Assembly (NCBI RefSeq): GCF_001720465.1 | Contig: NZ_CP017113.1 | Location: 806,001 to 870,000 of the forward strand | Length of the DNA stretch: 64,000 nt | Reading direction: 5' to 3' | Origin: Porphyrobacter sp. LM 6 | GTDB taxonomy: Bacteria > Pseudomonadota > Alphaproteobacteria > Sphingomonadales > Sphingomonadaceae | Shown: positions 48,912-64,000 of the stretch, in pieces | How positions within the stretch are numbered: the stretch's first letter is position 1 | How the letters are laid out: every line of letters starts with the position of its first letter | Notes under the pieces: generated by a model | What the model saw: only the letters and a program-made list of their open reading frames with translations | The model's database searches: none | Told to the model about the DNA's origin: nothing | Position numbers and translations under genes: made by a program

Positions 48912-50141
48912 TCAAAACCGCCAAACCAGCATCAGGTCGCCGCCAAAGCTTCCATAAGCATCGATGAATTCGGAATTTTCGTCGCGCGAGCGGTATCGCA
49001 GTGCCGTTTCGACAAACAGGCTGCGCCCGATCAGCGGCACCCCGATCGCGCCGCGCGCAAAGAACCGGAGCTGGCGCCTATCCTCGAAAAATTCGGCGTT
49101 GTGGAAGTCGACGTGGCGCAATGTCGCGGAAACCTTGCCATAGACGCCGTTCGTTTCGAGCGGGAATTCCGCACCTGCGGCAAGCCGGAAGGCATCATAG
49201 CCGAAGAATTCGAATGGCGCTTCCTTGGTCTCGGCGGCGATGGCCACGAAATAGGAGCTCAGCAAGGTGGGGTGGTGCTCGTAGATGAGCTCGCCGGTAT
49301 AGTGCCACCCATCGTAATTCGAGACGACGAATTCTTCATCGACCGCCTCAAGGCGCAGGGACAGCCGGCCGCTGTTCCCTATGCGCAAGCTCGCGCTCGC
49401 TTCGGCACCGAGCGCTGTCAGATATTCGGCGTCGGCGATCCGGCCGTGACGGACCAGCACGCCGGCAGTCAGCAGGCTTCGACCGGTTTCGGCCCCGATG
49501 CCCAGCGCAGCGTCGCCGAATTGATAATCGGTTCCCGGCCCCGAAAGGGGGTTCAGTGTCTGGGCGAACAGGTCCCCGTAGACGAACGCGTCGCCAAGCG
49601 GGATCTGGGCCGCAATCTGGCTCTGGGCGACGAAGGCCAATCCGTCTCTCGAAGCCGGAGCAAAGAATGGCGAGGTGTTGATTTCGCCAAACGCGTCCTC
49701 GTCGTAGGAGAGGCCGACGCTGATCTTGCCGCCGATCCGGCCGGTGCGGCGCGTTGCAGTTTTGAAATCGTCGCCGCAGGCAGTGACCATTTGCTCCCAT
49801 GCGTCACCGGAGGTCGGGCGAGAGCGCAGCGCCCCGAGTTCGATACGCGCCAGTTCGCGGTCATCGAGGCGGCAAAGCAGCCTGACATAGGCGAGGCGCA
49901 CATTATCAGCCTCGGGCTGATCGAGCAGCGCGCGCTCCAGTGTCGAGGCTGCTCCGAGGAGATCGCCCTCGGCTTCCTGCGCGGACGCCGTTGCAAGTGC
50001 GGTCTCTGGCCGCTCGGCAGCGGCGCTCAGCGCGTCGAGCGCGTCGTCGGCACCGGCATCCTGCGCAAGCGCTGCCGGGGCATGGAATGCCAGCCCGGTT
50101 ACGGAAATCGCCAGCGCCACACGCTTGCAAAGTCGCTGCAT
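48912..50141 (-). CDS. Outer-membrane protein with TPR and C-terminal beta-barrel
   Basis: A 409-residue exported protein. A signal peptide (residues 1-27, ending ALAQ) is followed by TPR-like helices (LGAASTLERALLDQPEADNV). From about residue 130 to the terminal phenylalanine, alternating amphipathic strands predict a beta-barrel (FGGDLMLVWRF at the end, a typical outer-membrane C-terminus). The layout resembles SLAM/DUF560-type proteins. ATG 50141 has GGGGGAG at 5-base spacing. It leads the FecR gene and is divergent from the cyclase. Confidence 0.72.
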   Translation of the reverse strand: MQRLCKRVALAISVTGLAFHAPAALAQDAGADDALDALSAAAERPETALATASAQEAEGDLLGAASTLERALLDQPEADNVRLAYVRLLCRLDDRELARIELGALRSRPTSGDAWEQMVTACGDDFKTATRRTGRIGGKISVGLSYDEDAFGEINTSPFFAPASRDGLAFVAQSQIAAQIPLGDAFVYGDLFAQTLNPLSGPGTDYQFGDAALGIGAETGRSLLTAGVLVRHGRIADAEYLTALGAEASASLRIGNSGRLSLRLEAVDEEFVVSNYDGWHYTGELIYEHHPTLLSSYFVAIAAETKEAPFEFFGYDAFRLAAGAEFPLETNGVYGKVSATLRHVDFHNAEFFEDRRQLRFFARGAIGVPLIGRSLFVETALRYRSRDENSEFIDAYGSFGGDLMLVWRF

Positions 50142-50279
50142 CGACACTCCCCCTATGTCCGGAGCGGACACTAGCACAGCAATCTCTTCACAGCCAGTGC
50201 GCGACAAGATGCTTCGGGTTTACCCTTGGGCAATCGCTTTGCTAAGCTACAGTCGGGCGGATGGGGAGTAGGGGCGGGC

Positions 50280-52514
50280 GTGTTCGGGATCAGAGCCTTT
50301 TTCAAGAGCACCGGCTTTGCCGGTGTGCTTGCGCTGGCGCTGATCTTTCTGATCCAGCTTAATTATACCCAGTCGCTTTCGGCGCTCGGCAACCTCGTTT
50401 TCGATGCCTATGCCCGTGCCCAGCCCCGCGCATATGAACCCGCGCCGGTGCGGGTGGTTGATATCGACGAGGAATCCTTGAGGCGCGAAGGACAGTGGCC
50501 GTGGTCCCGCCCCGTGGTCGGCCGGCTGCTCCAGCGTCTGACCGATGCGGGCGCGGCGACGATTGCGCTCGATATCGTCTTTTCCGAAGCCGACCGCACC
50601 TCGCCAGCCTTGATCGCGAATGATCTTGCCAAACAAGGCGCGGACCCTGCGGCGGTCGAAATGCTGCGCGGTTTGCCCGATAATGATCAACGTTTCGCTG
50701 AGGCGTTGTCGCAGATGCCCGTGGTGAACGGCTTTTTCCTGACCTACGATCCGCTGCACACCACTGCTGTGCCGATTGCGGGCATCGCGATTTCCGGATC
50801 GGCGCATACCGAAGCCATACCTCAATATTCCAATGCGGTGCTGCCCCTCGCACCGCTCGACGCGGCGGCGCAGGGTAGAGGCTTCCTCACCTTGAGCGGC
50901 GATGACGACGGGATCGTGCGCCGCGCGCCGTTGCTGGCGCGGCAGGGCGACCAGATCCTTCCCGCGCTTTCGATCGAGGCCTTGCGCGTGGCTCAGGGCG
51001 CAGGTTCGGTGCTGGTCAAAATGAGCGACGGCAGCGGCAACATCGCCGCCGGCGCAGACCCCGGCGTCGTGTCGCTGAAGGTCGGAGAATTTGAGATCCC
51101 TACGACGCGGGCGGGCGAACTTTGGATGCATTACACCGATCCGGTGCCGGAACGGATCATTCCGGCCTGGAAGGTGCTCGACCCCGCCACTTCGGACGCC
51201 GAGCTGGCAAGCCTGTTCGAAGGACAGATCGTGCTGGTTGGCACAGGAGCCATCGGTTTGCGCGATCTGGTGGCGACGCCGCTACGCGAACGCGAGCTGG
51301 GTGTGATGGTTCACGCGCAGGCGATCGAGCAAGCCATCCTCGGCAAATTCCTGACGCGGCCCGACTGGGCGGAAGGGCTGGAACGCACACTGGTGCTGCT
51401 GACCGGCCTTGCGCTGCTGCTGCTCCTGCCACGGCTCGGGGCGAGTGGCGGCGCGGTGTTGGGGTTGGCAATGATCCTGTTGGTCAGCGCCGGAAGTTGG
51501 TGGGCCTTCAGCGAGAAGCGCTTCCTGCTTGACCCGACCTTTCCGGTGCTGGCGATCCTTGCGGTCTACATCACTGTGACCGTGCTCGATTATTACCGCG
51601 AGGAGCAGGCGCGCAGCTACATCCATCAGGCCTTCGATCGCTATCTCTCGCCCGAACTGGTCAAGCGCATTGTGGCCGATCCGCACCAGCTCGATCTGGG
51701 CGGCGAGGAACGCGACATGACGGTGCTGTTCTGCGACATCCGCAGCTTCTCGCGCATCTCGGAAAAGCTCGAACCGAAGGCGATTATTGCCTTCCTGATC
51801 GGGTTCCTGACCCCGATGTGCGACATCCTGCTCGACCGCAAGGCGACGATCGACAAGTTCATCGGCGACGCCATCCTCGCCTTCTGGAACGCTCCGCTCG
51901 ACGACCCTGACCAGCACGTCAACGCGGCCCGCGCGGCGCTGGCGATGCATGAGCGGCTGAAGCAGCTCAATGCGGAGATGCCCGGGCGCAAGGACCAGAC
52001 CTGGCCCGGCGATGTGGCGATCGGGATCGGGCTCAATTCCGGTCCGTGCTGCGTCGGCAACATGGGTTCAGCCCAGCGCCTATCCTATTCGATCATCGGT
52101 GATGCGGTGAACCTCGCCTCGCGGATCGAGGGTCTGACGAAATATTATGGCGTCGGGATCGCGATGGGCAGTGCGCTCCAGCGCCGGCTGCCCGGCTTTG
52201 CTGCGGTCGAGCTTGATCTGGTGCGGGTGGTAGGCCGCGATACGCCCGAAGCGGTCTACGCTCTGCTGGGAGACGAAGCGCTGGCGCAGGACGGCGCGTT
52301 CCAGTCTTTTGCCGAGGGTCATGCGGCGATGCTGGCCGCCTATCGCGCAAGGGATTGGGATAGCACCAACCGCTTGCTTGACGAATGGGGGGCGCAGGCG
52401 GAAGCTCTGGGCTTGGGAATGCTGTATGCGATGTACCGCGAACGCGTGGCACAATTGCAGAGCGCGCCGCCACCGGACGATTGGGACGGCGTGTTCGCCG
52501 CCAACGAGAAATAG
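50280..52514 (+). CDS. CHASE2 domain-containing adenylate/guanylate cyclase
   Basis: A 744-residue membrane signalling enzyme. One N-terminal helix is followed by a periplasmic CHASE2 domain (about residues 30-340), three transmembrane helices (about 370-440), and a class III cyclase domain (about 480-660). Metal-binding aspartates are in VLFCDIRSFSRISEKL and the transition-state region in DKFIGDAILAFWNAP. The start is the GTG at 50280, with AGGGG 5 bases upstream. It would make cAMP (or cGMP) in response to a periplasmic signal. Its stop is 25 bp before the first multiheme cytochrome gene. Confidence 0.9.
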   Translation: MFGIRAFFKSTGFAGVLALALIFLIQLNYTQSLSALGNLVFDAYARAQPRAYEPAPVRVVDIDEESLRREGQWPWSRPVVGRLLQRLTDAGAATIALDIVFSEADRTSPALIANDLAKQGADPAAVEMLRGLPDNDQRFAEALSQMPVVNGFFLTYDPLHTTAVPIAGIAISGSAHTEAIPQYSNAVLPLAPLDAAAQGRGFLTLSGDDDGIVRRAPLLARQGDQILPALSIEALRVAQGAGSVLVKMSDGSGNIAAGADPGVVSLKVGEFEIPTTRAGELWMHYTDPVPERIIPAWKVLDPATSDAELASLFEGQIVLVGTGAIGLRDLVATPLRERELGVMVHAQAIEQAILGKFLTRPDWAEGLERTLVLLTGLALLLLLPRLGASGGAVLGLAMILLVSAGSWWAFSEKRFLLDPTFPVLAILAVYITVTVLDYYREEQARSYIHQAFDRYLSPELVKRIVADPHQLDLGGEERDMTVLFCDIRSFSRISEKLEPKAIIAFLIGFLTPMCDILLDRKATIDKFIGDAILAFWNAPLDDPDQHVNAARAALAMHERLKQLNAEMPGRKDQTWPGDVAIGIGLNSGPCCVGNMGSAQRLSYSIIGDAVNLASRIEGLTKYYGVGIAMGSALQRRLPGFAAVELDLVRVVGRDTPEAVYALLGDEALAQDGAFQSFAEGHAAMLAAYRARDWDSTNRLLDEWGAQAEALGLGMLYAMYRERVAQLQSAPPPDDWDGVFAANEK

Positions 52515-52539
52515 CGGCGCGATGGAGGGAGCGAGGGGA

Positions 52540-53898
52540 ATGGCCGAAGAGCCCAGACCGCACCGCAAGGGGCCGGGGCGGATGCTCGCCGCGATCCTCA
52601 TGCTCGCGCTGCTGCCCGCTTCGCAGGCCAGCGGTAATGCCCGGTACGAAGGTGTGGCGACCTGTGCCGGATCGACCTGCCATGGCCGGGCCGAGGGCAA
52701 TGGTGCGGTCGTGCGGCAGGATGAAATCGCCACCTGGCAATCGCCTTCCTCCGCCAGCGGCGCGCATAGCCGCGCCTATGCCGTGCTAGCGAGCGAGCGT
52801 GGCCGCCAGATCGCAGCGAGCCTCGGGCTCGGATCGGCGACGGCTGCTCCGGCCTGCCTCGGCTGCCATGCGACCTATGCCCCCGCCGAGCGGCGCGGTG
52901 AGCGTTTCCTGCTGTCCGACGGGGTCGGGTGCGAAAGCTGCCACGGCGCATCGGGTGGCTGGCTGCCGCTGCATTACGCGCTTCCCGCTACCCATGCCTC
53001 GAACGTGTCGGCCGGACTGGTGCCGCTCGAAAATCCGCAGGCGCGCGCACGTGTATGCCTCGATTGCCATTACGGATCGGACAAACCCGGCCAGTTCGTC
53101 ACCCATTCGATGATGGCGGCGGGGCACCCGCGCATCTCGTTCGAGCTCGATCTGTTCAGCGCCTTGCAACAGCACCATGATGACGATGCCGATTATGCCG
53201 CGCGCAAGGGCGGCGTGGACAGCGTGCGGATGTGGGCTGTTGGTCAAGCCGAGGCGGTGCGCCGCTCGACCAGCCTGTTCGCCCAGCCGCGCTTTGCCAT
53301 GCGCGGGATGTTCCCCGAATTCACCTTCTACGATTGCCACTCCTGCCATCGTAACATCACCGACGGGCCGCGCCGCAAGCTGACCTTCGAGACCAATCCG
53401 GGCCGCCCGATCCCATTCGGCAGCCCGCCCTTCAACGACGAGAACATCATCATGCTCTCGGCCGTGGCGAGGGCGCTGGCACCGGGTCAGGCCGAGGGCT
53501 TCCTCGCCGCCAGCCGCGATTTCCATGCCGCAATGGGCCGTGACGGCGCGGGCGCGCGCGAAGCTGCCACGGCGCTCGGACGACGGGCAGCGGCGCTGTC
53601 GGACAGCCTCGCTGCATCGGGCGGCGGCAATGCCTTTTCGGTGGTCCGGCTGATTGCCGACCGGGCAACATCGGCGCGATTTACCGATTATGCCGGATCG
53701 GTGCAGGCGGTGATGGCGATCGACACCCTGCTCAACGCGCTGGTGCGCGAAGGACGGATCACGGTGGGAGCCGCTGCCGGTATCCGCGCCGACATCAACC
53801 GCGCCTATGCGGCGGTTGACGATCCCAATTCCTACCGCCCGGCCCAGTTCCGCAGCGCGCTTGGTGCCGCAGCACAGGCGATCGGGACGCTGCAATGA
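52540..53898 (+). CDS. Pentaheme periplasmic cytochrome c (cytochrome c554-like)
   Basis: A 452-residue exported multiheme cytochrome. The signal peptide spans about residues 15-30. Five heme sites are seen: an unusual CX4CH (CAGSTCH, residues 42-48), then CLGCH (106), CESCH (131), CLDCH (173) and CHSCH (266). The spacing and HPRISFEL segment recall the c554/octaheme family. The C-terminal 180 residues are helical and heme-free. ATG 52540 is chosen (ATG 52522 also in frame). The stop overlaps the next gene's ATG by 4 bp. Confidence 0.85.
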   Translation: MAEEPRPHRKGPGRMLAAILMLALLPASQASGNARYEGVATCAGSTCHGRAEGNGAVVRQDEIATWQSPSSASGAHSRAYAVLASERGRQIAASLGLGSATAAPACLGCHATYAPAERRGERFLLSDGVGCESCHGASGGWLPLHYALPATHASNVSAGLVPLENPQARARVCLDCHYGSDKPGQFVTHSMMAAGHPRISFELDLFSALQQHHDDDADYAARKGGVDSVRMWAVGQAEAVRRSTSLFAQPRFAMRGMFPEFTFYDCHSCHRNITDGPRRKLTFETNPGRPIPFGSPPFNDENIIMLSAVARALAPGQAEGFLAASRDFHAAMGRDGAGAREAATALGRRAAALSDSLAASGGGNAFSVVRLIADRATSARFTDYAGSVQAVMAIDTLLNALVREGRITVGAAAGIRADINRAYAAVDDPNSYRPAQFRSALGAAAQAIGTLQ

Positions 53899-55835
53899 TG
53901 CGCCGCTCGCGCCGCATTGCCGTGATCTCCGGCGCGGCGCTCGTGCTGGCATCGTGCGGTGGCGGCGGGTCTTCGAGTAGCGGGCCGACCCCGACGCCCA
54001 CCCCCACTCCGCCGCCGAGCGGCGCGCTCTATGCTGTCCCGTCACCCGAGGCGCTGACAGCCGCCGAGGTCGGTACGATTGTGGCCCGCGCGGCGGCGCA
54101 GGCCAGCGCGCAGGGCCGCCCCGGCACGATCGCGGTGGTTGACCGGGTGGGCAATGTGCTCGCCGTCTTCGCCATGCCCGGGGCTGGTGCCACGGCGCGC
54201 ATCCCCGATGCGCCCGACGGCAACAACATCGATGCGCAAGGACTGGTCGTGCCAGCTGTCGCCGCCGCGATCGCCAAGGCGATCACCGGCGCCTATCTCT
54301 CGAGCAGCGGCAACGCCTTTTCCTCGCGCACCGCGAGCATGATCGTGCAACAGCACTTCCCGCCCGCGCCCAGCACTGCGGGACTGGAAAGCGGTCCGCT
54401 GTTCGGGGTGCAGTTCAGCCAACTGCCCTGTTCCGACCTTGCCGCGCGGGCGACCGACGGGCTGATCGGACCGAAGCGTTCGCCGTTCGGGCTGGCGGCC
54501 GATCCGGGCGGGTTTCCGCTCTACAAGAACGGCGTGGTGGTGGGCGGCGTCGGCGTGATTGCGGACGGCGTCTACGGGCTCGACCTCAATGTGCTCGATA
54601 TCGATCTCGACGCCGACGAAGCGATCGCACTCGCTGGCACGATCGGCTTCGAAGCGCCCGAGGCCATTCGCGCCAACCGCATCTTCGTCGACGGCACCTC
54701 TCTGCGCTATTCGGATGCGGGCTATGGCGCGCTCGCCAACGTCACCGGAGCAAGCTTTGCCGGCACGGCGGGCACGCTGGTGGCGGTCACGGGCTATTAT
54801 GACGGCCTCTCGCTGCGCAGCGGGACGGCCTATGGCACCGAAGCCTCGGGCGTGCGCGCCGCAACCGCCGCCGAATTCGCCAACCGCGATGCCTTTGTCC
54901 TGACGAATGGTGCGGGCGTGAGCCGCTATCCGGTGCGCGCCGGGACCGACGGGGCCGAAATTGCCAGCCCGATCAGCGCCGCCGAAGCGCGCGCGATCCT
55001 CGAAGAGGCGTTCGCGATCATGGGCCGCGCGCGCGCCCAGATTCGCCAGCCGCTCGATAGCCGGGCACAGGTCACCATCTCGTTGGTCGACACCCGCGGA
55101 GAGGTGTTGGGGATCGTCCGCTCGCCCGATGCGCCGGTGTTCGGGATCGATGTCAGCCTGCAAAAGGCGCGCACCGCCAATCTGCTGTCCGCGCCCTTTG
55201 CCGCCGCGCAATTGCAGGCGGCAGGCGGCGAGGTGCCGCAATTCGTCAGCCGCCTGCGCACTTTCCTTGGTGATCCCAATGCACTGACCGGAGCCTTCGC
55301 CTTTTCCGATCGTGCGGTCGGCAACCTTTCGAGGCCTTATTTCCCTGATGGCGAGGTGGGCCAGCCCAACGGCCCGCTGTCGCGCCCGATCGCGCAGTTC
55401 AATCCCTTCTCGACCGGGCTACAGTCGGCGCTGGTGGTGGGTAACCTCGCGCAGCACCTCGGTTTCGTGACCGGCGCAGCGGCCAGCGATACGCCGCGAT
55501 CCTGCACCAGCCTGCCCGATGCCACGCCCGGCCGCAGCCGGATCGCCAACGGCATCCAGATCTTCCCCGGATCGGTGCCGGTCTATCGCGGCGGCACGCT
55601 GGTGGGGGCTATCGGCGTTTCGGGCGACGGGATCGATCAGGATGACATGATCAGCTTCCTCGGCCTCAACAATGCCGGGCAGCGGGTCGGCGGAATCGCC
55701 AATGCCGCGCCCGGCATCCGCTCCGACCGGATCGTGGTCAGCGTGGGCTCGCGCCAAGTGCGACTGCGCTATGTCGGTTGCCCCTTTGCGCCCTTCCTCG
55801 ACAGCACCCAGAACAATGTCTGCGAGGGGCTGTAG
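53895..55835 (+). CDS. Lipoprotein with two HbpS/GlcG-like heme-binding domains
   Basis: A 646-residue predicted lipoprotein (lipobox LASC, Cys 21) with a GGGGSSSS and TP-repeat linker. Two GlcG/HbpS-like modules follow: the first opens EVGTIVARAAAQASAQGRPG and IAVVDRVGNVLAVF; the second opens EARAILEEAFAIMGRARAQI and VTISLVDTRGEVLGIV. HbpS-type domains bind heme. Conserved-looking cysteines occur near each module's end. Coupled by ATGA to the pentaheme gene and 2 bp before the barrel gene. Confidence 0.8.
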   Translation: MMRRSRRIAVISGAALVLASCGGGGSSSSGPTPTPTPTPPPSGALYAVPSPEALTAAEVGTIVARAAAQASAQGRPGTIAVVDRVGNVLAVFAMPGAGATARIPDAPDGNNIDAQGLVVPAVAAAIAKAITGAYLSSSGNAFSSRTASMIVQQHFPPAPSTAGLESGPLFGVQFSQLPCSDLAARATDGLIGPKRSPFGLAADPGGFPLYKNGVVVGGVGVIADGVYGLDLNVLDIDLDADEAIALAGTIGFEAPEAIRANRIFVDGTSLRYSDAGYGALANVTGASFAGTAGTLVAVTGYYDGLSLRSGTAYGTEASGVRAATAAEFANRDAFVLTNGAGVSRYPVRAGTDGAEIASPISAAEARAILEEAFAIMGRARAQIRQPLDSRAQVTISLVDTRGEVLGIVRSPDAPVFGIDVSLQKARTANLLSAPFAAAQLQAAGGEVPQFVSRLRTFLGDPNALTGAFAFSDRAVGNLSRPYFPDGEVGQPNGPLSRPIAQFNPFSTGLQSALVVGNLAQHLGFVTGAAASDTPRSCTSLPDATPGRSRIANGIQIFPGSVPVYRGGTLVGAIGVSGDGIDQDDMISFLGLNNAGQRVGGIANAAPGIRSDRIVVSVGSRQVRLRYVGCPFAPFLDSTQNNVCEGL

Positions 55836-55837
55836 CG

Positions 55838-57676
55838 ATGTCGGCGATCCTTTTGCCGCTGCTCATGCTGGTCCAGGCCGAGCCGCCTCCCGCCCCGGCG
55901 AGCGAGGCAGCTGCGCCCGAACCGCCGTGGGAAACAGACGCCCCTCCGGTCGATCCGCAGGTGATCGAAGGGCGGCGGCGGCCCGATTACACCGATCCGC
56001 TGCCCGATCCGGTGACGCAAAACAATCCGGGCGCAGTCCGCGCACCGCCCCCCAGCGCCTTCCCGGTCGATCAGGTGCCGATCCCCGATCGCTGGCGGCT
56101 GATCGAGAGCCTTGGCTTGGTGAAGGAGAAGTGGTGGGATCCCTATAACCAGAACACCTACAAGGGTGACCGCCCCATTGACCCGGCCAAGGTGCCGTGG
56201 CTGCCGATCAAGGGGCATGACTGGTTCTTCATAGCCAATGCGGTGAGCGACACCGTGATCGAGCCGCGCAGCTTCCCGATCCCCGTGGGTGTCCAGACCA
56301 CAGAGGATCCCGACCGCAACGACGTGTTCGGCAATGATGTCTCGACGGTCCTGTCGCAGACCTTCATCATCGGCGCAGCGCTGACCAAGGGCAGCACCGC
56401 GTTCAAACCGCCCGATGTCGAATATCGCGTCACGCTGGCGGTCAATCTCAACTATGTCGATGTGCCCGAGCGCCGCGTGCTGTTCGTCGAGCCGTCAAAG
56501 CCGAGCCAGCGCTTTGACCATTTCGTCGGCGTGCAGGAAGCCTTCTTCGATTACCATATCCGCAATGTCTCGACCCGTTATGACTTCGATTCCGTGCGGA
56601 TCGGGATTCAGCCGTTCCAATCGGATTTCCGCGGCTTCCTGTTCAACGACCAGCAGCTGGGTGTGCGGTTCTTCGGCACGCGCGACAACAACCGCTTCCA
56701 GTACAATCTGGCGGCGTTCTGGCGGCTGGAGAAGGACACCAACAGCGGGCTCAACTCGGTCGTCCAGCGCCCGCGTGACGATTGGTTGCTGGTCGCCAAT
56801 GTCTATCGCCAGGATTTCCTGATCCCGGCGCTGACCAGCCAGATCACGGTCGCCTACAACCGCAACCGCGAAGGCAACGAGATCGAAATCGACGACAACG
56901 GCTTCCCGGTGCGCCCGGCGCTGCTGGGCGATTTGCGCGGGCGCGATTACGATGTGGTCTATCTGGGTTACAACGCCGACGGCCGGATCGGCCGGATCAA
57001 TCTCACTGCGAGCGCCTATGCCGCGCTGGGAGAGGATCGGAACAGCATCTTCACCGGCGAACCGGCCGATATCCGGGCGTTCTTCGGCGCGGCCGAACTG
57101 AGCTACGATCGCGACTGGATGCGCTTTCGCCTGTCAGCCGCGTGGGCGAGCGGCGATGACGATCCCTACGACGGGCGCGAGACCGGGTTCGACGCCGTGT
57201 TCGAAAACCCGGTCTTTGCCGGCGCCGACACCAGCTACTGGATCCGCCAGACCATCCCCTTCGCGGGCGGCGGGCGGGCGGTCTCGGTCAATGGCCGCAA
57301 CGGGATGCTCAATTCGCTGCGTTCGTCGAAGGAACAGGGGCAGTCTAACTTCAACAACCCCGGCCTGATGCTACTTGGCGCCGGGGCCGACTTCGACCTG
57401 ACCCCCGAATTCCGCCTCTCCGCCAATGCCAACCACCTGTGGTTCGAAAACACGGCCACACTCGAGAAACTCCGTAACGAAGGCTCGATCCCGCGCGACA
57501 TCGGCTGGGATCTTTCGACAGCGGCGATCTGGCGCCCGAAGGCGACACAGAATATCGTGTTCCGACTGTCGGCCGCGACACTGCTTTCGGGCGGGGGCTT
57601 TCGTGACCTGTTCGACAGCCGGGGAGGGGGAAGTGCGTATTACTCGGTGCTGGCCAATGCGATCCTGACCTACTGA
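55838..57676 (+). CDS. Predicted outer-membrane beta-barrel (porin-like) protein
   Basis: A 612-residue protein with a short signal peptide and a proline-rich periplasmic N-terminal stretch. From about residue 120 on, repeated alternating strands end with an aromatic residue (SVLANAILTY), typical of outer-membrane barrels. Aspartate- and asparagine-rich turns (FGTRDNNRFQYNLAAFWRL) fit long external loops. No N-terminal CxxC or heme motif, so it is not MtrB by signature. It sits between a heme lipoprotein and a decaheme cytochrome gene, touching both. Confidence 0.75.
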   Translation: MSAILLPLLMLVQAEPPPAPASEAAAPEPPWETDAPPVDPQVIEGRRRPDYTDPLPDPVTQNNPGAVRAPPPSAFPVDQVPIPDRWRLIESLGLVKEKWWDPYNQNTYKGDRPIDPAKVPWLPIKGHDWFFIANAVSDTVIEPRSFPIPVGVQTTEDPDRNDVFGNDVSTVLSQTFIIGAALTKGSTAFKPPDVEYRVTLAVNLNYVDVPERRVLFVEPSKPSQRFDHFVGVQEAFFDYHIRNVSTRYDFDSVRIGIQPFQSDFRGFLFNDQQLGVRFFGTRDNNRFQYNLAAFWRLEKDTNSGLNSVVQRPRDDWLLVANVYRQDFLIPALTSQITVAYNRNREGNEIEIDDNGFPVRPALLGDLRGRDYDVVYLGYNADGRIGRINLTASAYAALGEDRNSIFTGEPADIRAFFGAAELSYDRDWMRFRLSAAWASGDDDPYDGRETGFDAVFENPVFAGADTSYWIRQTIPFAGGGRAVSVNGRNGMLNSLRSSKEQGQSNFNNPGLMLLGAGADFDLTPEFRLSANANHLWFENTATLEKLRNEGSIPRDIGWDLSTAAIWRPKATQNIVFRLSAATLLSGGGFRDLFDSRGGGSAYYSVLANAILTY

Positions 57677-60600
57677 TGCTGCATTTGCGCCGCCTTGTCC
57701 TTGCTACCGCAAGCGTGCTGCTGGCCGCAGCCATGATGCTCGGCCCGATCCGCGCGGCAGAGGGCGAGCAGGCGGTCAGTCGCGACTATTCGCTCGTCAC
57801 CGCCCCGCCCGCACCGGCGCGGCAGACTTATGGCGATGTGTTGACCAAATCCGCCGGTTGCACCTCTTGCCACGTCCAGAGCGATGCGCCCAGCATGCAC
57901 ATGAGCCCGGCGGTGCAATTGGGCTGCACCGATTGCCACGGCGGCAATGCTTCAGTCGCAGGCAATCCCGAGCTGCCGCACGATCACCCCGACTATCTCG
58001 CCGCCCGCGACCGCGCGCACGTGCTGCCCAAATATCCCAAGAGCTGGCACTGGCCCTCCTCCGCCAATCCCCAGCGCAGCTACGCGCTGCTAAACCGCGA
58101 GGCGCCCGAGTTCGTCCGCTTCGTCAATCCCAGCGATTACCGCGTCGCGCGCGAGGCCTGCGGCGCCTGCCACATGGCGACAATCGAGGCAGGCGAACGC
58201 TCGATCATGGCGACCGGCGCGATGCTGTGGGGCGGAGCGAGCTACAACAACGGGATTCTGCCGTTCAAGAACTACCTCCTTGGCGAGGCCTACACGCGCG
58301 AGGGTGAACCGGCGAAGATCGTGACCCCGGGTGATCCGCCGGGTACGCTGACCGAGCGGCAGAAGGCGCGCGGGGCGCTGGCCGAACTTTACCCGCTGCC
58401 GACATGGCACGTGATTCCGCCGGGCGACGTGTTCCGCGTGTTCGAACGCGGTGGGCGCAATATCAGCACCCAGTTCCCCGAAATCGGCCTGCCCAATCCG
58501 AGCGGATCGATCCAGCGCCTCGAAGAGCCGGGGCGGCCCGATCTCAAGCAATCGAACCGCGGGCCGGCCACCGGTCTCCGGGTCGCGATCCCCGCGCTCA
58601 ACATCCACAAGACCCGGCTCAACGATCCCTTCACTTGGTTCATGGGCACCAATGACCAGCCGGGCGACTATCGCCATTCGGGCTGCGCCAGCTGCCATGT
58701 GATCTATGCCAACGACCGCGAGCCGCGCCACTCGCTCATCTATGCCCAATTCGGCCGCGACGGGCAGACAGCCACTGTCGATCCGACCATCGCAGCCAAG
58801 CGCGAGGGCGGGCATGGCGCGCTCAAGCAGCCCGGCGATCACCACGAAGATGCCGAACCAGTGAAGGAAAAGGGCCATCCGCTCCGGCACGTCTTCACGC
58901 GCTCGATCCCCACAGCGCAATGCATGAACTGCCACATGCACCAGCCCAATATCTTCCTGAACTCCTACCTCGGCTACACCATGTGGGACTATGAGTCTGA
59001 TGCGCCCTTCATGTGGCCGGAGAAGCAGAAATACCCCACCGCCGAGGACGTGCGGAAGGTGCTCGACCGCAACCCCGAAGGCGCCGCGCCGCGCGGCAAC
59101 TGGGGCGATCTCGACTTCCTGCGCAATGTCTACGATCTCAACCCCAAGCTGAAGGACACCCAGTTCGCCGATTACCATGGGCATGGCTGGAACTTCCGGG
59201 CGATCTTCAAACGCGACCGTGAGGGCAATCTGCTCGATGCCGAAGGCCAGATTGTCGATCCCGACGATCCCGAGAAATGGCGGCGCAAGGACGAAGGCAA
59301 GTTCGTGCCGCCCGGCACCAATCCGGGCAAGGCGGTGCATCTGATGGACATCCATGCCGAAAAGGGCATGCAATGCGCCGATTGCCATTTCGCGCAGGAC
59401 AGCCACGGCAACGGGCTGATCTATGGCGAAGTCGCCAACGCGATCGAGATCGGCTGCAAGGACTGCCATGGCACGCCGGATGCCTATCCCACCCTGCGCA
59501 CCAGCGGTCCGGCCGCCCCGCCCAAGGGCAACGACCTCTCGCTACTGCGCAACCCCGATGGCCAGCGCCGGTTCGAATGGGTCGAAGGCGAAGACGGCCA
59601 GCGGCGGTTGATCCAGCGCTCGATCGTCGATCCCAAGCTCGAATGGGAGATGAGCCTCGTCAAGGATGCGGTCGATCCGGCGGGATCGCATTTCAACGCC
59701 AAGGCCGCGCGCGCCAAGCTGATGAGCCGGACCGGCGCGGAAACGGGCAAGTTCGAATTCGGGCTGGGCATCGCCGCAACCGACCGCGCGCACCGCGAGC
59801 CGGAGATGGCCTGCTTTACCTGTCACCTGTCATGGACCACCTCGTGTGGCGGGTGTCACCTGCCGATCGAGGCCAATTGGAAGAGCGAGGTCCACCGCTA
59901 TGAGGGCGAGACCACGCGCAACTTCGCGACCTACAACCCGCAGGTCGCGCGGGACGAGATGTTCCAGCTGGGCAAGCACCAGACCACCAAGGGTTCGCAG
60001 GTCGCGCCGGTGCGATCATCAAGCGCGCTGGTGTTGAGTTCAACCAACATCAACCGCGAACGGATCTACGTGCAGCAGCCACCGGTCTCCGCGATCGGCT
60101 TTTCCAGCCAGGCCTTCGCGCCGCACTTCCCGCATACCGTCCGCAAAACCGAGACCAAGACCTGTTCGGATTGCCACCTGTCGGATCAGGACGATAACAA
60201 CGCGATCATGGCGCAGCTGATGCTGCTCGGCACCAATTACGTCAATTTTGTCGGGATCAACGCCTGGACTGGTCTCGAAGGCGGCTTCTCCGCCGTCCGC
60301 GTGACCGAATGGGACGAACCGCAGGCGGTGATCGGCTCCTACCTCCACCGCTATGCCTATCCCGATTACTGGAAGCTCCATGTCGAGGATAATGACCGTG
60401 AGCTCAAGAACTGGACGCGCGGCAAGACCTTCGACGGCGAGCTGAGCGGCGAGACCGAGGCGTTCGAGCAGTTCGTCAACACCCACGAAGGCACGCGCGA
60501 CCGCGTCGGATGCCTGCAACTGCGCGGCGAATACATGTTCGTGGCCGAAGGCAAGGGCGGCTTCCGCGTCTATGATGTCGCTTCGATCGCCAACAAGGGC

Positions 60601-61686
60601 GTGTCGGAGCGGATCGTGACCGGGCCATTCTCGCCGATGGGCCATGACACGCGGGTCAAGACCCGCAATGCCACCTGCATGGCGCTCGCTACCAACCAGC
60701 CGATCAATCCGCTGCGCAACACCGCCGAAATGCGCGCGATGAACCAGGAGCAGGCGTTCCTGCCGATCTATTCCTACGCCGTCGTCACCGATGCCGAAGA
60801 AGGGCTGGTGCTGGTCAACATCAACACGCTGGCCGATGGCGAATTCCGCGGCAACCGGCTCAACCGGACCCGTTTCAGTGACGGCACGACGGCGTGGAAC
60901 CCCGACGGGGTGCTCGATGGTGCGCGGCATATCCAGCTGGCGGGCGAAGTGGCCTTCATCACAGCGCGGCGGGGGCTGGTGGTGGTGGATCTGGCCGATC
61001 CGCTCAATCCCCGGCTGGCGGCGGTGCGTCCGTTGGCCGATGCGCGGGCGAGCGCGATCCAGTTCCGATACCTTTGGGTGACCGATGCCGAGGGTGTGAA
61101 GCTGTTCGATGTCACCACCCTGCGCAATCCTGTGGCGATCCCAGAGGCGACCGTGCCGCTCGCCGATGCGCGGCGCATGTATATCGCGCGCACCTATGCC
61201 TATGTCGCCGCCAAGGCCGAAGGGCTGGTGATCCTCGACGTCAAGAACCCGATGCGCCCCCGCATTTATGCGCGCGAAACGCTGGGCGGCCAGATGGATG
61301 ATGCCGAGGATGTGATCGTCGCCTCGACCAATGCTTCGCTGTTCGCCTATGTCGCCGACGGCAAGAACGGGCTCAAGGTGCTGCAACTGACCAGCCCTGA
61401 TAGCCAGCGCAATTTCTACGGCTTCAGCCCCGCGCCCAAGCCCCAACTGATCGCATGGGCGAAAACGCCCTCGCCCGCGATTGCGCTCAGCAAGGGGCTC
61501 GACCGTGACCGCGCGGTGGACGAGACGGGAGGGCAGATGGCGGTGTTCGGCCGGCTCGGCTCGCGGCCCTTCACTCGCAGCGAGATGGAGCGCTTGTTCC
61601 TTACCCGCTCGGGCGTGCCGTGGAAGGTTTCGGATAAGCCCGACATGGACGTCTGGGTCAGCGGGCGCGGTCCGCTCGTGAACTAG
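57676..61686 (+). CDS. Decaheme c-type cytochrome with C-terminal LVIVD repeats
   Basis: A 1336-residue exported protein. A signal peptide (about residues 1-27) precedes ten CxxCH heme sites at residues 62, 84, 162, 337, 416, 567, 594, 713, 724 and 830. Residues about 950-1240 hold six LVIVD-type repeats (for example YAVVTDAEEGLVLVNI, FITARRGLVVVDLADPLNP), predicted to form a beta-propeller. LVIVD repeats occur in surface or extracellular proteins, so cell-surface exposure is plausible. Its ATG shares a base with the barrel gene's stop, and its 3' end overlaps the convergent FHA-cytochrome gene by 4 bp. Confidence 0.88.
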   Translation: MLHLRRLVLATASVLLAAAMMLGPIRAAEGEQAVSRDYSLVTAPPAPARQTYGDVLTKSAGCTSCHVQSDAPSMHMSPAVQLGCTDCHGGNASVAGNPELPHDHPDYLAARDRAHVLPKYPKSWHWPSSANPQRSYALLNREAPEFVRFVNPSDYRVAREACGACHMATIEAGERSIMATGAMLWGGASYNNGILPFKNYLLGEAYTREGEPAKIVTPGDPPGTLTERQKARGALAELYPLPTWHVIPPGDVFRVFERGGRNISTQFPEIGLPNPSGSIQRLEEPGRPDLKQSNRGPATGLRVAIPALNIHKTRLNDPFTWFMGTNDQPGDYRHSGCASCHVIYANDREPRHSLIYAQFGRDGQTATVDPTIAAKREGGHGALKQPGDHHEDAEPVKEKGHPLRHVFTRSIPTAQCMNCHMHQPNIFLNSYLGYTMWDYESDAPFMWPEKQKYPTAEDVRKVLDRNPEGAAPRGNWGDLDFLRNVYDLNPKLKDTQFADYHGHGWNFRAIFKRDREGNLLDAEGQIVDPDDPEKWRRKDEGKFVPPGTNPGKAVHLMDIHAEKGMQCADCHFAQDSHGNGLIYGEVANAIEIGCKDCHGTPDAYPTLRTSGPAAPPKGNDLSLLRNPDGQRRFEWVEGEDGQRRLIQRSIVDPKLEWEMSLVKDAVDPAGSHFNAKAARAKLMSRTGAETGKFEFGLGIAATDRAHREPEMACFTCHLSWTTSCGGCHLPIEANWKSEVHRYEGETTRNFATYNPQVARDEMFQLGKHQTTKGSQVAPVRSSSALVLSSTNINRERIYVQQPPVSAIGFSSQAFAPHFPHTVRKTETKTCSDCHLSDQDDNNAIMAQLMLLGTNYVNFVGINAWTGLEGGFSAVRVTEWDEPQAVIGSYLHRYAYPDYWKLHVEDNDRELKNWTRGKTFDGELSGETEAFEQFVNTHEGTRDRVGCLQLRGEYMFVAEGKGGFRVYDVASIANKGVSERIVTGPFSPMGHDTRVKTRNATCMALATNQPINPLRNTAEMRAMNQEQAFLPIYSYAVVTDAEEGLVLVNINTLADGEFRGNRLNRTRFSDGTTAWNPDGVLDGARHIQLAGEVAFITARRGLVVVDLADPLNPRLAAVRPLADARASAIQFRYLWVTDAEGVKLFDVTTLRNPVAIPEATVPLADARRMYIARTYAYVAAKAEGLVILDVKNPMRPRIYARETLGGQMDDAEDVIVASTNASLFAYVADGKNGLKVLQLTSPDSQRNFYGFSPAPKPQLIAWAKTPSPAIALSKGLDRDRAVDETGGQMAVFGRLGSRPFTRSEMERLFLTRSGVPWKVSDKPDMDVWVSGRGPLVN

Positions 61687-63443
61687 GGTTCGCGCCGTCC
61701 GATGAGGGCGACCTTCTCGCGGAGCTGACCCGGGTGATCCTTGGGCAAGGGGCCGCTGGGCGCATGGTAGGAATGGCACATCGCGCAGCTTGAAGGCACT
61801 TCTGCCCGCACCGCATCCTCGCCCTGATGGCATTCGCGGCAGCTTGCAAGATTGGGCAGCAGGAGATCGGTTGAGGCTTTGGACGTGGTGGCCTTGTGGC
61901 AGCTGGTGCATTTCTCCTGCCGGTGCGCGCCGTGATCGAAACCGCCGTTGAGGAAATAGCGATCGGGCAGGTTGACCGGCATCACATCCGCCTTCCCGCC
62001 GCGCACTGCCGGCAGGTGGCACTCCCCGCACACGCCGCCGGGGGCAAGCGCCCGGTCGACGCCGACCAACGAGGGCCGGGGAGTGCCGAAATCGGCATAA
62101 TAAAGCCCTTCGCGGGCATATTTGCCGGGCCTTGAACGCCCGCTCACAACCGGGCGGCGCGGCGTGCGGTCCATCGCCATCAGATCGGCCTTCATCAGCG
62201 CGACATCGCCATGCCGTAGCGTGCGGAAGGTGCTGCCGACCTTGTCGTAGACGAGGCTGTGGCAGCTACCGCAGCTCTCCTCCATCTTGATCGGCTCGAA
62301 CCCGACCTTGTCGCGCGTGGCTTCGTGGCAATCCTTGCAGACCAGCGCTGCGCCATAGCCCTTGTCCGCGCCGAGCCTGATCGCCATGCGCGCCACCCCG
62401 CCGCGCGGTGCAAGGTGCAGATCATGCGGGAACTTCAGTCCGCTCGCCTCGCGCGGCTTGTCGCCCAATGACATCCGCACCGGCTTTGCCTGTCCGGGCC
62501 GGGTAAAGATCGCCGGCTGGAACTCGGGGTGGGCCTTGCCGAAATCGGCCGCGTTCGTGAGCTTGGTATCGGTCAGGCGCTGGTCGAGCGTGCCGTGGCA
62601 ATCGGCGCAGAATTGCTGGCTCGCGGGCTCCATCCGGCTCGGACCTTCGTGCTCGGTATGGCAGGTGGTGCAGGCGTCCGGGCCCTCCTTGCCGAAGGAT
62701 TCCGCCACCGCCCACTGCAACCCGTCGCCCATGCCGAACGGCGCACGGCCTTGGGCAAGGCGCGGCGCGGCGGCATGATCGCCAATCGCCTTGTGGCACG
62801 AAAGGCAGGTTTCATCGCGCACCGAAACGAAGGCATCGACGTGGCAGGATTCGCAATTGTTCTCGAGCGCATGGTGCGCCTTGCTCAATTTGCCAGGGCT
62901 CCAGCTGGCGTCGAAGGCGACCGCATCAGGCCGGCCGGTCGCCGGCGCGATCTTCTCGCGCGTCAGATGCGAGATCACCGGAACCGCAAGGAAGGCAAGC
63001 AGGATCGCGCCGAGCAGGCCCCACGACAGGAGGCGCTTGCTAGGCATTGCCGCCTCAAGCGCGAAGCTGCGTTTGGCATCGGCGAGGCCTTCGCTCCGGA
63101 TCAGCGGACGAATCATGACCTCGATCGCGGCATCGCCCGTCTGTGCGAGCGAGAGCAGCGTGCCGCCGAGCGCGATTTCCGCTCCTTCGCGCGGGTCGCA
63201 CACGGCCTCGGTGGTGCTGCGCCCGTCGATCGTGAAGCCGAGCGTGCCCAAGGCACGGATGGCGAGCCTGCCACCCGGAGCCGGATCGATCCGCAGATGG
63301 TGCTGCTCGATGGCAAGGTCGAGCAGGTGGATATCGTTGTCGGTCGCGCGGCCCACGGTCAGGCTGGCCTGCGCCACCTCGCGCTCGCGCACGATCTCCC
63401 GGCCACCGGCGGTCAGGTCGACAGTGCGGATGAGAAACGCCAT
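61683..63443 (-). CDS. FHA domain - transmembrane - decaheme cytochrome c fusion
   Basis: A 586-residue protein in three parts. Residues 1-115 look like an FHA domain (LTVGRATDNDIHLLDLAIEQ, GR at 31-32) that would be cytoplasmic; the usual SRxH is EQHH here, so phosphothreonine binding is uncertain. One transmembrane helix covers about 138-160. The periplasmic part carries ten CxxCH sites (CESCH, CLSCH, CTTCH, CADCH, CKDCH, CGSCH, CGECH, CTSCH, CRECH, CAMCH). The gene for the membrane protein ending at 63447 lies 3 bp upstream. It is convergent with the decaheme-LVIVD gene. Confidence 0.87.
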   Translation of the reverse strand: MAFLIRTVDLTAGGREIVREREVAQASLTVGRATDNDIHLLDLAIEQHHLRIDPAPGGRLAIRALGTLGFTIDGRSTTEAVCDPREGAEIALGGTLLSLAQTGDAAIEVMIRPLIRSEGLADAKRSFALEAAMPSKRLLSWGLLGAILLAFLAVPVISHLTREKIAPATGRPDAVAFDASWSPGKLSKAHHALENNCESCHVDAFVSVRDETCLSCHKAIGDHAAAPRLAQGRAPFGMGDGLQWAVAESFGKEGPDACTTCHTEHEGPSRMEPASQQFCADCHGTLDQRLTDTKLTNAADFGKAHPEFQPAIFTRPGQAKPVRMSLGDKPREASGLKFPHDLHLAPRGGVARMAIRLGADKGYGAALVCKDCHEATRDKVGFEPIKMEESCGSCHSLVYDKVGSTFRTLRHGDVALMKADLMAMDRTPRRPVVSGRSRPGKYAREGLYYADFGTPRPSLVGVDRALAPGGVCGECHLPAVRGGKADVMPVNLPDRYFLNGGFDHGAHRQEKCTSCHKATTSKASTDLLLPNLASCRECHQGEDAVRAEVPSSCAMCHSYHAPSGPLPKDHPGQLREKVALIGRREP

Positions 63444-63446
63444 CCC

Positions 63447-64000
63447 CTATCCCCAGTAATAGAAGACACTGATGACATGCGCGGCCAGCGCTGCGAGCAG
63501 CGCGATGGTGACCGGGATGTGCACGAACAGCCAGACATCGAGCAGCGCTTTCAAGCGCAACTGCCGCCGGATCTGCGCGAGCTGCGCGCTGCGCTTGCCG
63601 AGCAGCACCCTGACCCGTTCTTCTGCCCCCTTGTTGTCGGCCATCGTTCGGAAATCGTCCGGCAAGCCAGCCAGTGCACGCGCCGTCGCGCAGCGCGGAT
63701 AACGCCCGGTTAGCCGCGCCCAGACTCCGCCGGAAAAGGTGTCCTGTGCCAGCGCAGCCAGCACCAGATCGGCCTGCTGGCGTCCGAGCGGCTGGGCGGC
63801 CTGTTCCAGCTGGCGATCAATCGCGGCCAGCGCCTCGATCATCTGCGTGCGGGTCATCTCCTTGCGGTTGGCGCTGAGTCGCGCGGGCAGCGTGGCATAG
63901 ACCGCGATGCCGTATATCCCCGAGACAATCACCAGCATCATCAGCGCCCAGGCCAGCGTGTGCACGTTCCAGCCGAGCTGGAACCCGGTGTGGAGCGTGC
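63447..64000 (-). CDS. Membrane protein of the multiheme cluster, 3' part (5' end outside window)
   Basis: The visible 184 residues begin LHTGFQLGWNVHTLAWALMM and include two strong transmembrane helices (one near the visible start, LAWALMMLVIVSGIYGIAVY, and one near the end, VHIPVTIALLAALAAHVISV) with a helical soluble segment between. Histidines in and near the helices could bind heme b, as in quinol-oxidising cytochrome b proteins; this is inference. It lies 3 bp upstream of the FHA-cytochrome gene, so the two are coupled. The gene continues beyond base 64000. Confidence 0.7.
   Translation of the reverse strand, partial: TLHTGFQLGWNVHTLAWALMMLVIVSGIYGIAVYATLPARLSANRKEMTRTQMIEALAAIDRQLEQAAQPLGRQQADLVLAALAQDTFSGGVWARLTGRYPRCATARALAGLPDDFRTMADNKGAEERVRVLLGKRSAQLAQIRRQLRLKALLDVWLFVHIPVTIALLAALAAHVISVFYYWG

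Follow-up and report, generated by a model that had tools for sequence, protein, structure and literature searches.

The window analyzed here is a stretch of 64,000 nucleotides (nt), covering positions 806001-870000 of the single-contig, 2.98-Mb genome of Porphyrobacter sp. LM 6. At its end lies a cluster of genes, here termed A to F, in which a preliminary description made from the sequence had seen a candidate trans-envelope electron-transfer system (Table 1). All six genes were found at the described places as open reading frames (ORFs), and the heme-c motifs, previously put at about 25, number exactly 25 across the cluster; since they are retained in relatives read as complete ORFs, they are not chance occurrences. 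The tight spacing of the genes was confirmed as well, with overlaps of 4 nt for A/B and B/C, 1 nt common to C and D, a tail-to-tail overlap of 4 nt for D/E, and a gap of 3 nt between E and F, while an alternative in-frame ATG for A is located at 52522. However, the frame of six genes proved too small, as the minus-strand operon starts with G outside the window, followed by F and E, and the cyclase gene Y ends 25 nt before A. Reading beyond the window edge gave full lengths of 294 amino acids (aa) for F and 823 aa for G.

Table 1. Genes and features of the cluster and its flanks, in window coordinates.
Element	Position	Strand	Remarks
Y, CHASE2 class III adenylate/guanylate cyclase	50226-52514	+	Pfam CHASE2 183 bits, Guanylate_cyc 61 bits
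A, pentaheme cytochrome, c554-like	52540-53898	+	Pfam Cytochrome_C554; signal peptide by eye
B, lipoprotein with HbpS-like domains	53895-55835	+	PF03928 75 bits, 3 stretches; lipobox L-A-S-C by eye
C, predicted 18-strand outer-membrane barrel, AlgE-like fold, without heme motif	55832-57676	+	
D, decaheme cytochrome with C-terminal LVIVD repeats	57676-61686	+	10 CXXCH; LVIVD 48 bits
D, ten-CXXCH stretch	57859-60177	+	Across 70 sequences, all motif columns invariant except for one nearly invariant Cys
D, best LVIVD repeat match	61168-61260	+	
E, FHA domain, one transmembrane helix and decaheme part	61683-63443	-	Pfam FHA, Cytochrome_C7, Cytochrom_c3_2; transmembrane helix by eye
E, ten-CXXCH stretch	61773-62855	-	
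E, FHA domain	63168-63359	-	Usual S-R-x-H residues absent
F, 5-helix bis-histidine protein	63447-64331 (window part 63447-64000)	-	Helices by eye
F, W-x3-H-x13-H of helix 5	63477-63533	-	W and the two His conserved without exception in an alignment of 21 sequences
F, W-x3-H-x13-H of helix 3	63990-64046	-	Straddles window edge
G, FAD, 2 cNMP and 4Fe-4S domains	~64331-66802	-	Outside window; upstream of F
H, NrfG-like tetratricopeptide repeat (TPR) protein	~66890-67816		Outside window

The product of G combines a YpdA-like FAD/NAD(P) domain, two cyclic nucleotide-binding (cNMP) domains, and a HycB/HybA-like ferredoxin part with four [4Fe-4S] motifs, in this order. The cNMP domains match PF00027 with 111.9 bits (gathering score 27.5) in two stretches and, among others, regulatory subunits of PKA (72 bits, likewise in two stretches), and the C-terminus corresponds to Fer4_11 (pfam13247; 43.7 bits). 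The consensus pattern of the phosphate-binding cassette was found in both cNMP domains of all 53 FAD-type G proteins read, i.e., that of the window, 33 from Sphingomonadales (of 63 loci with a G match, the rest being without a complete ORF), and 19 distant ones. G is likely to carry two receptors for a cyclic nucleotide. In F, previously described as a membrane protein with candidate heme histidines, these histidines belong to a bis-histidine signature; the two W-x3-H-x13-H motifs together with a [ST]G-x2-G motif were seen in 63/63 relatives from the Sphingomonadales and in each of the 25 F genes called in distant lineages. By this signature, F would hold two b hemes.

The cytochromes of the cluster are similarly conserved. 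Four CXXCH motifs and one CX4CH motif make up the heme set of A, and all were kept in 68/68 relatives, as were the ten CXXCH motifs in 75/75 relatives of D and 62/62 of E; these counts refer to complete ORFs, with loci that had a match but no complete ORF left out (1/69 for A, 5/80 for D, and 5/67 for E). A is probably periplasmic, while B, for which 60 of the 65 relatives read contain the lipobox pattern, appears to be a lipoprotein of the outer-membrane type. It is HbpS-like, with three stretches matching the family. The decaheme part of D (residues 28-945, modeled from 70 sequences) was predicted with a mean local confidence (pLDDT) of 54 and matched no PDB structure at E 0.001, and we therefore make no claim about its fold; searched by sequence, D gave only chance-level matches to NrfA in the PDB (E 0.7 and 0.97). 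The ten heme motifs of E are invariant in an alignment of 21 sequences, and its FHA domain would be cytoplasmic and its decaheme part periplasmic. FHA domains bind phosphothreonine through a consensus of S-R-x-H. At this place, E of the window reads A-I-E-Q-H-H; furthermore, SR.H is absent from the first 70 residues in 62/62 E proteins, and no S-R occurs at the corresponding place in the 21 aligned rows. Because these residues are missing, E was dropped as a candidate phosphothreonine sensor.

Structure prediction agreed with the earlier view of C as an outer-membrane barrel and gave 18 strands, at a pLDDT of 60 and with low confidence for residues 1-114. The best fold match is AlgE, the alginate exporter of Pseudomonas, and the predicted structure falls within the 18-strand AlgE type. 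C differs from AlgE in that the alignments shown have only 11-15% identity and that no alginate genes were seen among the cluster neighbors scanned. C has no heme motif, no match in the PDB by sequence, and no Pfam match at E 0.1, including families of the MtrB/PioB type. Its likeness to MtrCAB, MtoAB, and PioAB consists in the combination of a barrel with multiheme cytochromes, for which electron transport across the outer membrane has been proposed; however, C lacks an MtrB Pfam match and has 18 predicted strands, whereas MtrB has 26. MtrB was not among the Foldseek and VIA-align matches listed for C, which we did not use as a test. Moreover, neither A (19.9 bits) nor E (16 bits) reached the cut-off of 192.2 for the DmsE/MtrA family (TIGR03508).

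Among the literature matches listed, the only close work is that of He et al. 2017 (PMC5566968), with preprints and most subscription papers lying beyond the search. In its main text, PCC3 and PCC4 are described as putative porin-cytochrome conduits with an inner-membrane protein of five helices, which carries WX3HX13H on helices 3 and 5 and SGXXG on helix 4 and for which two b hemes were inferred. The cytochromes of PCC3 are heme-rich (medians of 34 and 21) and its porins have up to 42 transmembrane regions, while the PCC4 set comprises three cytochromes of the periplasm, bearing 4, 5, and 10 heme sites, and, in subgroup II, a pfam13247 iron-sulfur gene upstream of the gene for the inner-membrane protein (PMC5566968). 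The same main text, with domain drawings placed in the supplements, contains no word beginning with cyclic, cNMP, nucleotide-binding, or FHA.

F shares this inner-membrane signature, if SG or TG is allowed and with helices assigned by eye. This also holds with respect to PCC3, but very heme-rich cytochromes and large porins are not found here. With PCC4, the cluster furthermore shares the Fer4_11 part of G encoded just upstream of F, as in subgroup II, a 10-heme and a 4-CXXCH cytochrome, and an outer-membrane barrel. In contrast, the heme set differs (4 CXXCH plus 1 CX4CH, 10, and 10), G of the window type has an additional FAD/NAD(P) domain, and the outer half consists of B, C, and D (HbpS lipoprotein, AlgE-like barrel, and decaheme-LVIVD cytochrome) instead of a five-heme cytochrome and a porin of ~500 aa.

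The relation between the two became clearer from F homologs in other lineages. In 289 genomes of the Alphaproteobacteria, the F profile matched 34 times, in 27 cases strongly (E < 1e-68). For the 31 matches from families other than that of the window, a simple gene caller was applied to the surrounding stretches. In 15/31 (L114, L115, L117-L120, L122, L123, L125, L128-L130, L135, L136, L144), G-F-E is followed by B-C-D in one direction, including some cases in which one of E, F, or G escaped the caller but was detected by tblastn, except for G of L144, where the contig ends; in L121 and L131 the contig ends after B or C. In seven of these loci (L118, L120, L123, L125, L128, L129, L130), a small gene of ~150-220 aa stands between E and B; some of its products have a signal peptide by eye, and none of the three scanned had a Pfam match. 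In two further loci (L116, L127), G-F-E of the same kind is accompanied by A, by a cytochrome with five CXXCH motifs, and by a porin candidate of 535 or 538 aa, and L134 contains G-F-E and A without a five-CXXCH cytochrome or porin candidate. A third group of seven loci, all weak matches (L137-L143), encodes G- and F-like proteins with 4-, 5-, or 10-CXXCH cytochromes; these were called PCC4 by gene content, not by comparison with published sequences. The full PCC4 set (4, 5, 10, and a porin candidate) was found in L140, L142, and L143 and most of it in L137 and L139, while L138 and L141 have no five-heme or porin gene within the stretch read. The remaining four loci are short contigs (L124, L126) or AT-rich and unreadable by the caller (L132, L133).

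In the PCC4-like loci, the iron-sulfur protein also has cNMP domains but no FAD domain (4/4 scanned), and in six of the seven loci it shows the first cassette pattern. As side observations, CHASE2-cyclase profile matches lie near two of the seven loci, L138 (17841-20000) and L140 (3-1382); without a background rate, these were not counted. The five-heme and porin proteins of the second and third groups are homologous (e.g., L127 vs L137 with E 7.7e-258 and L127 vs L140 with E 3.8e-157). Since G-F-E thus stands with either B-C-D or a PCC4-type half, a single inner-membrane G-F-E core apparently works with two different outer halves. The preliminary description had considered the domain set as different from those of known conduits, but the cluster is not entirely separate from known types, given the published signature of F and the occurrence of the core with a PCC4-type half. 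The cluster can fairly be regarded as a PCC4-related variant rather than a member of PCC4.

Within the Sphingomonadales, the gene set co-occurs widely. A search for relatives of D yielded 464 stretches of a species genome collection, of which the best 80, labeled with Sphingomonadales genera or broader, were kept; the order A-B-C-D, convergent E-F-G, and then H was found in 55 of these. The other 25 comprise 11 loci with A-D but without E-H, 13 partial ones (many at contig ends), and one with G-F-E inverted. C was identified in 39/196 Sphingomonadales genomes and in 12/398 genomes of the phylum, 2 of these 12 from outside the class. In the genus of the window, only 6 of the 11 genomes searched carry the system, which indicates that it comes and goes. 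Two neighboring genes were noted during this analysis. H, a TPR protein with NrfG/CcmH-type matches, stands divergently beside G in 61/80 related loci (e.g., L002:4391-5317) and is perhaps a heme-attachment helper, for instance for the CX4CH site of A. Furthermore, positions 48912-50207 of the window encode, on the minus strand and divergent from the cyclase gene, a TPR protein whose C-terminal part is likely a barrel and looks SLAM-like by eye.

The most unusual part of the system is G together with its link to a cyclase and a phosphodiesterase. Two class III cyclases were found in the host genome, one of which is Y. Among the 196 Sphingomonadales genomes, a cyclase was detected in 39/39 with C compared to 31/157 without, and a CpdA/SpdA-like phosphodiesterase (E < 1e-40) in 39/39 compared to 9/157, one of the matches outside the family being that of G697 (1.8e-44). 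This co-occurrence of cyclase and phosphodiesterase with the barrel is new here. At the same thresholds, both are present in all six genomes of the window's genus that have the system and in none of the five that lack it, the latter containing only two weak phosphodiesterase matches (3.5e-5 and 4.6e-4). In a separate search of 16 near relatives, F, cyclase, and phosphodiesterase were found in 11/11 genomes with the system, and neither F nor cyclase in the five congeners without it. Moreover, the F profile matched 11/11 genomes with C and none of the 27 C-less genomes tried.

The genes are also physically linked. In 28/39 genomes, a cyclase is located no more than 30 kb from C, and in 32/39 this holds for the distance to either C or the phosphodiesterase gene, compared to ~1.8 expected for random placement in 3.2-Mb genomes. 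For genomes with a single cyclase, the latter proportion is 16/18, a denominator that is approximate, as cyclase counts vary between runs (4 or 3 in G760, 2 or 1 in G796). The phosphodiesterase lies within 10 kb of C in 22/39 genomes and adjoins E in 66/67 loci with D and E (65 by script and L011 by coordinates); it is not beside E in L059 and at the window locus. In G481, G608, and G653, the phosphodiesterase is far from C while F is ~3 kb from the phosphodiesterase, which suggests that the E-F-G module moved as one. Two of these operon partners of E, scanned from Sphingomonadales, gave 136-142 bits with SpdA of NCBIfam and 88-95 bits with CpdA, which is below the curated cut-offs of 400 and 225, so that the substrate may be a 3',5' or a 2',3' cyclic nucleotide. 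The cyclases upstream of A, in two of which, both those then scanned, Pfam found the cyclase domain, form two lineages that are 23-35% identical where aligned, which suggests that a cyclase was recruited repeatedly to this place. Loss of the phosphodiesterase from the window genome, considered at one point, proved wrong, because the gene is located elsewhere in the genome. There (1237342-1246000), it stands beside hemN and apparent fix/cco (cbb3 oxidase) genes by eye, a neighborhood hinting at low-oxygen respiration.

We consider it slightly more probable than its negation, at roughly 55%, that the cluster encodes NAD(P)H-linked electron transfer across the envelope with an entry step controlled by a cyclic nucleotide. 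The G-F-E complex would carry electrons between NAD(P)H in the cytoplasm and cytochromes in the periplasm, from NAD(P)H via FAD and four [4Fe-4S] clusters of G to two b hemes of F and ten c hemes of E, and further to A and D at the C barrel, with the outer half A-B-C-D carrying electrons to the outer membrane or taking them from it. The tandem cNMP domains, positioned between the flavin and iron-sulfur parts of G, probably gate the entry step, and the cyclase and phosphodiesterase would set the nucleotide level. More tentatively, and at somewhat less than even odds, these may form a dedicated second-messenger circuit, with the receptor in the flavin-iron-sulfur subunit, that switches trans-envelope electron flow directly and not via transcription, and that in some hosts may be the main or only use of cAMP/cGMP. 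Of the earlier proposal that electrons pass between the inner membrane and the cell surface, the path from cytoplasm to periplasm is complete on paper through G, F, and E, but the crossing of the outer membrane did not find support in C, which is predicted to have 18 strands and contains no heme motif.

Several observations weigh against this NAD(P)H-linked, nucleotide-gated conduit. With no heme and only 18 predicted strands in C, a cytochrome inside the modeled barrel is doubtful. A same-strand CHASE2-cyclase gene within 2 kb upstream of A was found in only 29/63 loci with at least 3.5 kb of upstream sequence available, at a distance of 19-27 nt in three and 0.8-1.6 kb in the others, and the phosphodiesterase of the window genome is 375 kb away. 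In other families of the order, 21 genomes contain a cyclase but lack C, and no phosphodiesterase of this kind was detected outside the Sphingomonadales in stretches L114-L144, some of which are short. Our initial notion that cyclase and phosphodiesterase occur only with the system was wrong: eight genomes of the genus g407 (G736, G745, G753, G774, G798, G799, G823, G828) have the pair without C or F, and the signalling pair is thus not exclusive to the system. Finally, the genomes share descent, so that Fisher p-values make the co-occurrence counts look more independent than they are; these p-values were given no weight.

It is a serious possibility, although short of an even chance, that the cluster represents a periplasmic respiratory enzyme. 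In this case, D would be a multiheme oxidoreductase at work in the periplasm or at the inner leaflet of the outer membrane, C would be no more than a porin admitting its substrate, and no electrons would cross the outer membrane. This is countered by the resemblance of B to outer-membrane lipoproteins and its production together with C and D, as well as by the pairing of the same core, in two loci, with a PCC4-type half, a proposed outer-membrane conduit. The regulatory part could be explained differently, too: the cyclase and phosphodiesterase may serve a CRP-type transcription factor, the cNMP domains of G being structural remnants and the co-occurrence reflecting shared regulation of expression. 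CRP-like proteins are common, and the g407 genomes keep the pair without the system, but structural remnants would sit uneasily with intact cassettes in every G protein read, and a purely transcriptional role with the proximity of the cyclase to C or the phosphodiesterase in nearly all single-cyclase genomes, and we consider this explanation unlikely. Still less probable is electron uptake, in which Fe(II), Mn(II), or a similar donor outside the cell would be oxidized and electrons fed inward, the direction that He et al. 2017 (PMC5566968) proposed for PCC3 and PCC4 of Fe(II) oxidizers. The NAD(P)/FAD domain of G argues against it, as NAD reduction from such donors would need energy. The hosts, moreover, are mostly aerobic heterotrophs or phototrophs. 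That the cluster is simply PCC4 is very improbable, since the common F signature, Fer4_11 part, and 10-heme and 4-CXXCH cytochromes are offset by the lack of a five-CXXCH cytochrome, by the lack of matches to the B, C, and D profiles at E 1e-3 in L137-L143, and by porin candidates of these loci, which stand in here for published PCC4 porins, that do not match C in either direction.

To our knowledge, the control described so far for electron transfer through the envelope mainly concerns gene expression. If the reading of a nucleotide-gated conduit is true, a cyclic-nucleotide receptor inside the entry enzyme, together with its cyclase and phosphodiesterase, would represent a new control principle in common aerobic bacteria and offer a simple test case for it. 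The occurrence of one inner-membrane core with two outer halves helps to sort multiheme clusters that are so far unassigned, and the system would suggest a function to be sought in thousands of proteins; among those that are listed under a name, most are annotated as hypothetical.

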